DNA of 37,515 nucleotides from a virus. Each line of letters begins with the position of its first letter. Positions within the stretch are counted from its first letter, which is position 1. The notes below the pieces were generated by a model. It had not been told where the DNA came from. It made no database searches and worked only from the letters and a program-made list of their open reading frames with translations. Made by a program: the position numbers and the translations under genes. This document shows positions 5,079 through 6,780 of the stretch, one piece after another. The stretch spans positions 1 to 37,515 of IMG/VR virus record IMGVR_UViG_3300048597_000488; one strand, 5' to 3'.

Positions 5079-5136
5079 TTGACAAAAAGATGTATGGGTT
5101 AAAATAAAAAGATGCCCCCCTGCGCTAACAGGGAGG
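5079..5136 (+). promoter_or_regulatory. Promoter and 5' hairpin of module 1
   Basis: TTGACA at 5079-5084 and TAAAAT at 5100-5105 (15-base spacer; overlapping AAATAA at 17) form a candidate promoter. The transcript would begin near 5112 and immediately contain CCCTG (5118-5122), loop CGCTAA, CAGGG (5129-5133), with two further G-C pairs beyond one mismatch. The same order, AAAAAGATGCCCCC then hairpin, occurs in front of module 2 on the - strand (17181-17218), where the stem is a perfect 7 bp. Confidence 0.6.
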
Positions 5137-5170
5137 ACTTTACCAACACCTATCAGAGAGGTATCGGCTT

Positions 5171-5860
5171 ATGAATAGCCTACAAGTTTTTTGCTTTGAT
5201 TCCCAAGAAGTTCGTTTTGTTGAAGGCAAACCCGTCGCAAACGATGTAGCCAATGTCTTGGGTTATAAAGATCCAGCCAAGACGGTTTCAACTAAGGTTT
5301 TTGCCGAAAATAAAAGTGTTACCAAAACGGTAACAGTTGACGGAAAGTCCCGTGACATAACAGTTTTAGAGGAAGCGGGAATCTATCAACTGGTTTTTTC
5401 TAGTAAGTTGGCCACCGCCCAGAAATTCCAGCAGTGGGTATTTTCCGAAGTTCTTCCTTCTATTCGCAAAACTGGAAGCTATGGCGATCGCCAACCTGAG
5501 TTACCAACCAACTACCTAGATGCGTTAAAGGCATTGGTGGCCGCCGAGGAACAGAAAGCCTTGATGGAGGCTGAGCGACAGTTACTCAAGGAAGAAAATC
5601 AACAACTTGCAGAGGCAGTGGATGAACTCTTTGAATATTCCTCTATCCTGCGGGTCGCCAAATACAACAACATGAGCGAGAAGGCTTTTGATTGGCGCAA
5701 GTTGAAAGCAGCGGCGATCGCCGTGGGAGAAGAAATCAAACGAGTCCCCTGCCCTCGGTTTGAAACTAAACTGCTTTATCCCCATAGTGCATGGCGTTTC
5801 TGTTATCCAGAAGTTCGACTGCCTGAAACCACGACTCTGCGACTACCCCCTGCCAAATAA
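5171..5860 (+). CDS. BRO-N domain DNA-binding protein (module 1, gene 1)
   Basis: A 229-residue protein. Residues 1-105 are a BRO-N domain: FCFDSQEVRFVEGKPVANDVANVLGYKDP, EEAGIYQLVFSSKL and FQQWVFSEVLPSIRKTGSYG. Residues about 115-150 are a coiled coil (AAEEQKALMEAERQLLKEEN). The C-terminal part (SSILRVAKYNNMSEKAF, then WRKLKAAA, PRFETKLLYPHSAWRFCYP) resembles a domain often found in cyanobacterial BRO proteins. BRO-N proteins bind DNA and are common phage antirepressor-type accessory genes. The first five residues, MNSLQ, and the start-codon context are shared with the KilA-N gene of module 2, although the domains differ. It has its own promoter and is followed by the conserved 38-nt element and a GIY-YIG gene. 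It contains HIP1 sites, unlike its partner. Confidence 0.8.
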   Translation: MNSLQVFCFDSQEVRFVEGKPVANDVANVLGYKDPAKTVSTKVFAENKSVTKTVTVDGKSRDITVLEEAGIYQLVFSSKLATAQKFQQWVFSEVLPSIRKTGSYGDRQPELPTNYLDALKALVAAEEQKALMEAERQLLKEENQQLAEAVDELFEYSSILRVAKYNNMSEKAFDWRKLKAAAIAVGEEIKRVPCPRFETKLLYPHSAWRFCYPEVRLPETTTLRLPPAK

Positions 5861-5865
5861 TCAGC

Positions 5866-5903
5866 CTGCGCCGTTAGGGAGGGAGTGGCGCCCCTGACCT
5901 TTT
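5866..5903 (+). promoter_or_regulatory. Conserved 38-nt intergenic element, copy 1
   Basis: These 38 bases recur without a difference at 16380-16417 on the other strand, again between a DNA-binding gene and a GIY-YIG gene. Two competing stems are possible. GCGCC (5868-5872) can pair with GGCGC (5887-5891). GTTAGGG (5873-5879) can pair with CCCTGAC (5892-5898, one G-U), which is followed by CTTTT. The second could act as a weak terminator and the first as its rival. It could equally be a protein-binding or cleavage site on DNA. Confidence 0.6.
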
Positions 5904-5928
5904 CTCTACACATAGAAGGTCAATTATC

Positions 5929-6780
5929 GTGCCAAAAACAGAATTGTTGCATAAAGCTACAAGATTCATAGAAAGAAACAAGTCCTTGTTTTACTTGAGC
6001 GACATCACGTTGAAGTGGGACGAAGGCATAGGAAAAGATACAGACTATTACCAAGGAAGAGATTTTGACCTGACCGCCCATAATTCATTCTCTATAAAGT
6101 ATGGGAGGCATGAATCCACTATTTACTTGGGCAAGCATCGGTTTGGAGACGATGGGCTGGGAACGTTTAAGCGATGCTTGTGTGGGGCTATTGTGGAGGA
6201 CGAAAAAGAGCACTATAAGCATCAAAGAGAATGTGTGTGTTGCATCGAAAAAATAAAAGAGATTGACACTGATGTGTTCGAGGATCTTATTGAATATTAC
6301 AGATCAAGAAAGAGGGTTGTAAATCCAGAAATTTGGGATAAATACCAGATCGGCAAATGTCGCTCATTGACCCCAATAACTGGAGGTAAAGGCAAGGATG
6401 GCAGCCAGATGTCTGATTTCTTTCTGCTTAGTAGCGTATTGGTTTCGGATCCAAACGATTTTCCCGAATGCCGTGGTGTTTACCTTGTTAGGTTTTTAAA
6501 CAACAATAAATGGATTCCACTTTACTGTGGCAAAAGTGAAAATATGCATGAAAGATGGAAGACTCATCACAGAATGCCTGAGATAGAACTTCTTCAAAAA
6601 ATAGGTGTTCAGTTAGAGTTTCGATATATTGCGGAAACCCCTTTGGTCAAGCTAAATGGAACCATTGATGAGCTTGAACTGCAACTTATCAACTCATTTA
6701 AGCCCAAGCTGAATAACACCCTCACATTAAAGTCTTCTCGATTTCCCATCCGCCAAGCAAAATCCAGTGATCAGCAATAG
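5929..6780 (+). CDS. GIY-YIG family endonuclease (module 1, gene 2)
   Basis: A 283-residue protein starting at GTG with AGAAGG nine bases upstream. The N-terminal half is unrecognised but has a possible zinc site (C83, C85, H95/H98, C102, C104, C105). The C-terminal GIY-YIG nuclease domain spans about 180-265: GVY at 183-185, YCG at 199-201, catalytic Arg in HERW (R209), acidic residue in DELE (E250) and Asn in KPKLN (N262). GIY-YIG enzymes of this type nick or cut DNA and often drive homing of phage elements. The nuclease domain is clearly related to that of the gene at 15742-16350 (HHRMxEI...L...G...YxxET). The gene has no internal HIP1 site and is A+T-richer than its neighbours, which suggests recent arrival. 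Confidence 0.8.
   Translation: MPKTELLHKATRFIERNKSLFYLSDITLKWDEGIGKDTDYYQGRDFDLTAHNSFSIKYGRHESTIYLGKHRFGDDGLGTFKRCLCGAIVEDEKEHYKHQRECVCCIEKIKEIDTDVFEDLIEYYRSRKRVVNPEIWDKYQIGKCRSLTPITGGKGKDGSQMSDFFLLSSVLVSDPNDFPECRGVYLVRFLNNNKWIPLYCGKSENMHERWKTHHRMPEIELLQKIGVQLEFRYIAETPLVKLNGTIDELELQLINSFKPKLNNTLTLKSSRFPIRQAKSSDQQ

Follow-up and report, generated by a model that had tools for sequence, protein, structure and literature searches.

Two paralogous two-gene cassettes, probably of homing type, lie in variable intergenic slots of a cyanophage genome

Why would one phage genome carry, twice and on opposite strands, the same succession of a -10 element, a 5' stem-loop, a first gene, a 38-nt element and a GIY-YIG gene? 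The genome in question is a virus record of 37,515 nt, analysed here as a whole and called the window. We found the order in both copies, as a sequence-only reading had described it. Module 1 (about 5079-6780, + strand) is flanked by the tail terminator and major tail protein genes, and module 2 (about 15742-17218, - strand) by nrdB and dnaN; protein-family assignments agree with the neighbours given in that reading (tail terminator and tail tube; nrdB and dnaN). We amend its gene count, as module 2 contains two GIY-YIG-type genes. A '-35' TTGACA is present in module 1 only and absent from module 2. All parts of the modules are listed in Table 1.

Table 1. Parts of the two modules in the window.
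Feature	Position	Strand	Basis
Module 1 promoter: TTGACA (5079-5084), 15-nt spacer, TAAAAT (5100-5105)	5079..5105	+	Consensus match only, predicted
Module 1 5'-proximal stem-loop, CCCCCTG-CGCTAA-CAGGGAGG	5116..5136	+	-9.3 kcal/mol, 10 nt past the -10
Hairpin ACCT..AGGT on the Shine-Dalgarno of the BRO-N gene	5148..5162	+	Predicted fold; geometry as in module 2
BRO-N gene, 229 aa	5171..5860	+	Pfam PF02498, 3e-18; PHROG anti-repressor
38-nt element, copy 1	5866..5903	+	Sequence match
Hairpin GACCTTTT..AGAAGGTC on the Shine-Dalgarno of the module 1 GIY-YIG gene	5896..5921	+	Predicted fold
Module 1 GIY-YIG nuclease gene, 283 aa	5929..6780	+	Pfam, 6.5e-6; alignment
Module 2 GIY-YIG nuclease gene, 202 aa	15742..16350	-	Homologue of 5929-6780
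Hairpin ACCTTTT..AAAAGGT on the Shine-Dalgarno of the module 2 GIY-YIG gene	16360..16386	-	Predicted fold
38-nt element, copy 2	16380..16417	-	Sequence match
KilA-N + MUG113/T5orf172-type nuclease gene, 225 aa	16469..17146	-	Pfam; MNSLQ start as in the BRO-N gene
Hairpin ACCT..AGGT on the Shine-Dalgarno of the KilA-N gene	17156..17170	-	Predicted fold
Module 2 5'-proximal stem-loop, CCCCCTG-CTACGAA-CAGGGGG	17182..17202	-	Fold z=-2.2
Module 2 -10 TATAAT, without a -35 like that of module 1	17213..17218	-	Read directly; kept in L003

The window phage is a cyanophage with a siphovirus-type gene order, and is rich in the cyanobacterial HIP1 octamer GCGATCGC (41 copies in 37.5 kb). Its major tail protein shares 30-44% identity mainly with those of cyanosiphoviruses such as S-H1, MED4-117 and P-HS2. 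Many of the HIP1 copies are found at gene junctions adjoining inserts.

Pfam assigns the first genes as had been proposed: BRO-N in module 1 (66.5 bits against a cut-off of 25.6), and KilA-N (9e-8, 32.4 bits against 23.8) with a T5orf172-like nuclease, MUG113 (2e-6), in module 2. MUG113 belongs to the GIY-YIG clan and is close to T5orf172. Both N-terminal domains thus pass the Pfam cut-off, as for BRO-N/KilA-N anti-repressors. Past their common MNSLQ start the two first genes are unrelated. The C-terminal half of the BRO-N protein is 57% identical to that of ORF064 of Planktothrix phage PaV-LD, whose N terminus is KilA-N: the exchange of N-termini over a common C-terminal part is a habit of this family of BRO-N/KilA-N anti-repressor and regulator genes. 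Fusions of KilA-N with T5orf172 were reportedly described by Iyer, Koonin and Aravind in 2002. Unlike the anti-repressors, the window genes are coupled with a GIY-YIG gene in a two-gene cassette with a shared leader.

The second genes encode distant homologues (24% identity over 159 aa, E=2e-13). The Pfam GIY-YIG match of the module 2 protein (7e-4) lies slightly below the cut-off. Aligned with cyanobacterial plasmid homologues, with which they have the catalytic domain alone in common, both proteins keep Y, YxG, R, H, E and N, so that both look catalytically intact. A GIY-YIG nuclease domain with its catalytic residues, as in homing genes, is therefore present. Among solved structures the module 1 protein has weak matches, some of them to UvrC nuclease domains; single-sequence AlphaFold models (mean pLDDT 35 and 40) were too poor for a fold search. 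No relative of these two proteins was found in viral contigs or phage records.

The two genes of each module are separated by the 38-mer CTGCGCCGTTAGGGAGGGAGTGGCGCCCCTGACCTTTT, with 0 mismatches between copies. Homology around it reaches 59/68 (BLASTN E=1e-18), and the identity ends abruptly: 38/38 positions match, and the likeness is then lost within about 25 nt. No chance copy arose in 100 dinucleotide-preserving shuffles, even with 3 mismatches allowed. At blastn sensitivity, neither 50,697 phage records nor 72,556 plasmid records contain the element, one plasmid match having E=7. An exact 18-mer of it has no match in 2.9 million viral contigs, nor has an exact 29-mer in viral contigs, and the sole match of a 20-mer pattern in 84,980 genomes is unrelated, actinobacterial (Jiangellales) and due to chance. 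Occurrence in unrelated contexts had been named beforehand as evidence against a cassette; the phage, plasmid, viral-contig and genome searches gave none, and in everything searched the element is the sole part unique to the two modules. That the likeness is a chance similarity or a widespread repeat is excluded at this sensitivity, and we give it next to no credence.

Past the first-gene stop, both copies can be translated as CAVREGVAPLTF(L)SLHxxG, with an indel of 3 nt that preserves the frame (5866-5925; 16417-16365 on the - strand). A small ORF may thus lie in the 38-nt element.

By tail protein, six viral contigs are close relatives of the window phage; the contigs compared with the window are L003, L004, L006, L007 and L015. 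At slot 1, the place of module 1, L007 (about 80% DNA identity) has some 27 nt between the terminator gene and the tail-protein leader, against 1.76 kb in the window: its slot is empty. L003 (93% identical) has there a 3.4-kb insert in which two more ORFs accompany an HNH gene and a DEAD-type helicase gene, and L004 about 3.2 kb with genes that we labelled by eye as tail-fibre-like. If related phages always carried both modules, with no empty sites, this had been named as grounds for dropping the cassette; they do not always carry module 1, as L007 is without it and L003 has another insert. The 38-nt element was considered as a homing target and rejected, because it belongs to the cassettes themselves and the empty slot of L007 does not have it.

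At slot 2, between nrdB and dnaN, L003 and the window are 96% identical over 78 nt that begin ahead of the nrdB stop and take in the 5' stem-loop. They diverge exactly at the 3' arm of the leader hairpin, and the sequence beyond is unrelated. In L003 a 316-aa protein with DUF4379/DUF723 zinc repeats follows, and then dnaN; weak, sub-cut-off matches to T5orf172 and MUG113 suggest that this protein probably ends in a T5orf172/GIY-YIG domain. The same leader thus precedes an unrelated gene, which is independent evidence for the proposal that the scaffold was kept while the coding parts behind it were swapped. Searching with dnaN and nrdB brought up only L003, L015, whose dnaN has other surroundings, and phages in which nrdB is followed by different genes; no relative with an empty slot 2 was among them. 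The expected empty sites were accordingly found at slot 1 and not at slot 2: the intergenic insertion with presence and absence that characterizes homing genes is seen at the former, and gene exchange only at the latter.

Could the pairs be ordinary phage morons, in which an anti-repressor-like regulator and an accessory nuclease serve superinfection exclusion or regulation and spread by general recombination, not homing? Annotations of BRO-N and KilA-N proteins usually name an anti-repressor or a regulator, their genes are often single inserts amid structural genes in cyanophages, and the slot 1 helicase of L003, which has a PADLOC PbeA match, suggests that the slot takes several kinds of cargo. 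We nevertheless find this unlikely: two slots with two or three GIY-YIG-type nucleases, and in the sister phage a zinc-repeat protein with a probable T5orf172 end, are what one usually meets among homing genes (PMC10448857).

Two observations concern the slots themselves. The L003 insert (4571-7953), with its HNH gene, DEAD/ResIII helicase (PbeA match at 8e-12) and two unknown ORFs, may be phage-competition or defence cargo. In the window, the stretch 1174-1592, upstream of the capsid leader, has a 111-aa orphan ORF (1240-1575) that is missing in L003, and may be another insertion slot before a late leader.

The leaders of the two modules share 15 identical nucleotides, TAAAAAGATGCCCCC, within a 66/86 alignment (BLASTN E=1e-7) that runs on past the start codon up to ATGAAyAGCCTACA. 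The MNSLQ gene starts differ at two nucleotides, both synonymous (AAT/AAC and CAA/CAG). In module 2 the stem reads CCCCCTG..CAGGGGG, whereas module 1 and L003 have CCCCCCTG..CAGGGAGG; the loops differ between the three, and the stem pairing is kept. For the module 2 stem-loop, 5/200 shuffles fold equally well. An Rfam search of window positions 4900-17700 gave no match up to E=1.

Folding predictions also involve the ribosome-binding sites. The Shine-Dalgarno of all four module genes can pair with an upstream ACCT-type stretch. Its predicted unpaired probability is 0.01 for the module 1 GIY-YIG gene, the lowest among 41 gene starts, and 0.09 for that of module 2, against a median of 0.36 for the 41 genes; low accessibility also occurs in a few other window genes. 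The BRO-N and KilA-N genes have a predicted accessibility that is ordinary for this phage. The hairpin on the GIY-YIG ribosome site is kept between the modules although its 3' arm and loop differ, and does not by itself account for the 38-nt identity. Our best guess is that the 38-nt element is part of a hairpin system setting nuclease translation, possibly kept identical by conversion between the copies.

The shared non-coding sequences might alternatively be recombination linkers or recent gene-conversion tracts, short stretches of homology at the borders by which modules are traded, with no regulatory role of their own. Such an origin would fit the abrupt loss of identity beside the 38-nt element, the parting of L003 and the window right at the hairpin 3' arm, and the BRO-like MNSLQ start of the KilA-N gene, as expected from a crossover at the gene 5' end. 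It is at odds with a stem whose pairing is kept while its sequence changes (module 1, module 2 and L003), with a ribosome-site hairpin that outlasts changes to its 3' arm and loop, and with the covariation of the PaV-LD leaders described below. We regard it as possible but not likely.

The leader hairpin was also considered as an antisense terminator, with an A-run before it and a T-run on the opposite strand; this is not favoured, because 4-5 nt part the stem from the T-run.

In the searched sequences, the pattern of the module leader matched L003 only. Leaders of similar build are found elsewhere. The window has a second family, TAGAAT-N-AGGTCNGTGACC then (T)AGGCTGTGCC, with a dyad, at 1594, 6822 and 22437 (+ strand), where it heads the capsid gene, the major tail protein (tail-tube) gene and one more gene of the tail region. 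L003, L004, L006 and L007 share this family, a candidate late promoter/leader of this phage group. Over 7 sequences, compensation in its downstream helix is double-sided at one pair and one-sided at two, and one pair is broken in 3/7.

This repeated family on capsid, tail-tube and tail genes lends some plausibility to another origin of the module leader, as a resident promoter of dnaN or other phage genes behind which nuclease genes were inserted, the module 1 copy having been carried along. L003, with the leader in the same place and a different gene behind it, is in agreement. However, dnaN of L015 is without such a leader (in a differing gene context), four other phages have none after nrdB, and module 1 has a leader where L003 and L007 have none. 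We doubt this explanation about as much as the moron one.

In PaV-LD (NC_016564.1) a leader TATAAT - GCnnnT CGC GGTG..CACC C AnnnGC occurs three times, at 16755 (-), 45781 (+) and 72091 (+); three pairs of its outer stem are changed, each on both sides, in a compensatory fashion. These leaders head ORF028, ORF068 and ORF099/100. The first two are paralogues (phrog_32599), and ORF100 is an anti-repressor, in an operon. Genes with a -10 followed by a strong hairpin number 9 in PaV-LD, 11 in Aphanizomenon phage vB_AphaS-CL131 and 2 in the window, against 0.7, 2.0 and 1.0, respectively, expected from shuffled upstream regions.

Outside the window, such promoter-plus-hairpin leaders precede 6/9 Bro-N/KilA-N genes, a class defined by Pfam, and 15/103 other genes (p ~0.001). 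By phage, the counts are 1/1 in CL131, 3/3 in PaV-LD, 2/2 in Nodularia phage 2AV2, 0/1 in Mic1 and 0/2 in LMM01, where the automatic criterion passes 1/2 through a hairpin apparently inside the preceding gene. Three of the nine genes had suggested the idea; among the six not seen beforehand the count is 3/6 (p ~0.04). A Fisher value of 2.5e-6 is too optimistic, some members of the class having been included once their leaders were known, and we take the association to be real at p ~0.001. The leaders of these Bro-N/KilA-N genes differ in sequence from that of the modules, which we would rather class as an example of a wider cyanophage leader type with a preference for BRO-N/KilA-N genes. Of the original view that non-coding parts define the cassette, the 38-nt element remains, being unique; for the leader the view is not supported as it was put, given the second window family, PaV-LD and the BRO-N/KilA-N leaders of other cyanophages.

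Modules of this kind can be placed among known systems. T4-type free-standing homing genes (seg/GIY-YIG and mob/HNH) are alike in their intergenic GIY-YIG genes beside nrd or structural genes, slot variability, own promoters and hairpins sequestering the ribosome-binding site, which in the window are predicted (PMC2988022); for the T4 genes, control through such hairpins and through autorepression is described (PMC2988022). In the window, by contrast, a separate BRO-N or KilA-N gene comes before the nuclease gene, and the two cassettes share an identical 38-nt spacer. ICP1-like T5orf172/zinc-repeat homing genes are approached by the L003 slot 2 gene, with the DUF4379/DUF723 repeats of that class and its weak T5orf172/MUG113 matches; the window genes differ in having KilA-N or BRO-N in place of zinc repeats. 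Domain swapping and a location near nrd or tail genes are reported for the ICP1-like genes in the passages of PMC10448857 consulted, in which no kept regulatory scaffold is described and the word 'promoter' was not found.

One further pair of a DNA-binding and a GIY-YIG gene, of the kind that the original description suggested looking for, is gp062-gp063 of CL131. As in the window, BRO-N comes first, followed after 66 nt by a GIY-YIG gene, here of the MUG113/T5orf172 type, like the first gene of module 2. In front of gp062 there is a -10, TAAAAT, with a strong stem-loop 7 nt later and a Shine-Dalgarno that can pair with CCTG; between gp062 and gp063 lies a stem with a G-rich loop. The non-coding parts have the same architecture as those of the window without sequence identity, and this likeness, one case, could be convergence.

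From anatomy, paralogy, slot variability, exchange behind the leader and predicted structures we infer, with moderate confidence, that the modules are two paralogous, free-standing homing-type cassettes in intergenic slots. GIY-YIG homology, the conserved non-coding parts and the state of slot 1 in L007, L003 and L004 uphold the earlier claim of paralogous cassettes with homing-type genes in variable slots. Each cassette comprises its own predicted promoter, a predicted stem-loop near the transcript 5' end, a DNA-binding gene, the 38-nt spacer and a GIY-YIG gene. Most likely, the nucleases would cut related phage genomes without the cassette near the slot, and recombination would copy the cassette and its flanks into the cut genome. 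The first gene (BRO-N or KilA-N-nuclease) may act as a regulator or targeting partner, and the hairpin on the ribosome site may hold back nuclease translation, by analogy with T4-type homing genes. Recombination in the slots would exchange coding parts, often inside or beside the leader and spacer, which are kept.

That phage homing genes swap domains is already known. The claim here is narrower, namely that whole coding modules are replaced behind a structured leader that stays, and the replacement can be seen both between the two modules of the window and between the window phage and its sister L003. Were the leader the point of control, this would explain how newly arriving nucleases are domesticated immediately. 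A -10 with a stem-loop after it is also a sequence handle for mobile regulators in cyanophages, whose gene control is little studied. A bolder idea, which we consider a long shot, is that cyanophage BRO-N/KilA-N genes have a dedicated leader of conserved structure (promoter, strong stem-loop within about 15 nt), which persists as a reusable docking scaffold as one coding module replaces another behind it. In the window, the separate DNA-binding protein would then use this leader, together with the 38-nt element, to control or target the GIY-YIG nuclease.

Some minor features accompany these leaders and genes. Directly past the -10, AAAGATG opens a short frame in the window (5112-5173; from 17204 downwards on the - strand) that reads MPPC... 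in module 1, where it overlaps the BRO-N start as ATGA, MPPATNRG... in module 2 and MPPCYEQ... in L003, and may be a near-leaderless upstream ORF. IS200/IS605-type transposase genes adjoin the BRO-N gene of CL131 (L032, about 1000-1045) and a KilA-N gene of 2AV2 (46616-47869). On its 5' side, the CL131 transposase gene has a strong hairpin, GGTGCTGACAACACC, which resembles the PaV-LD leader loop.
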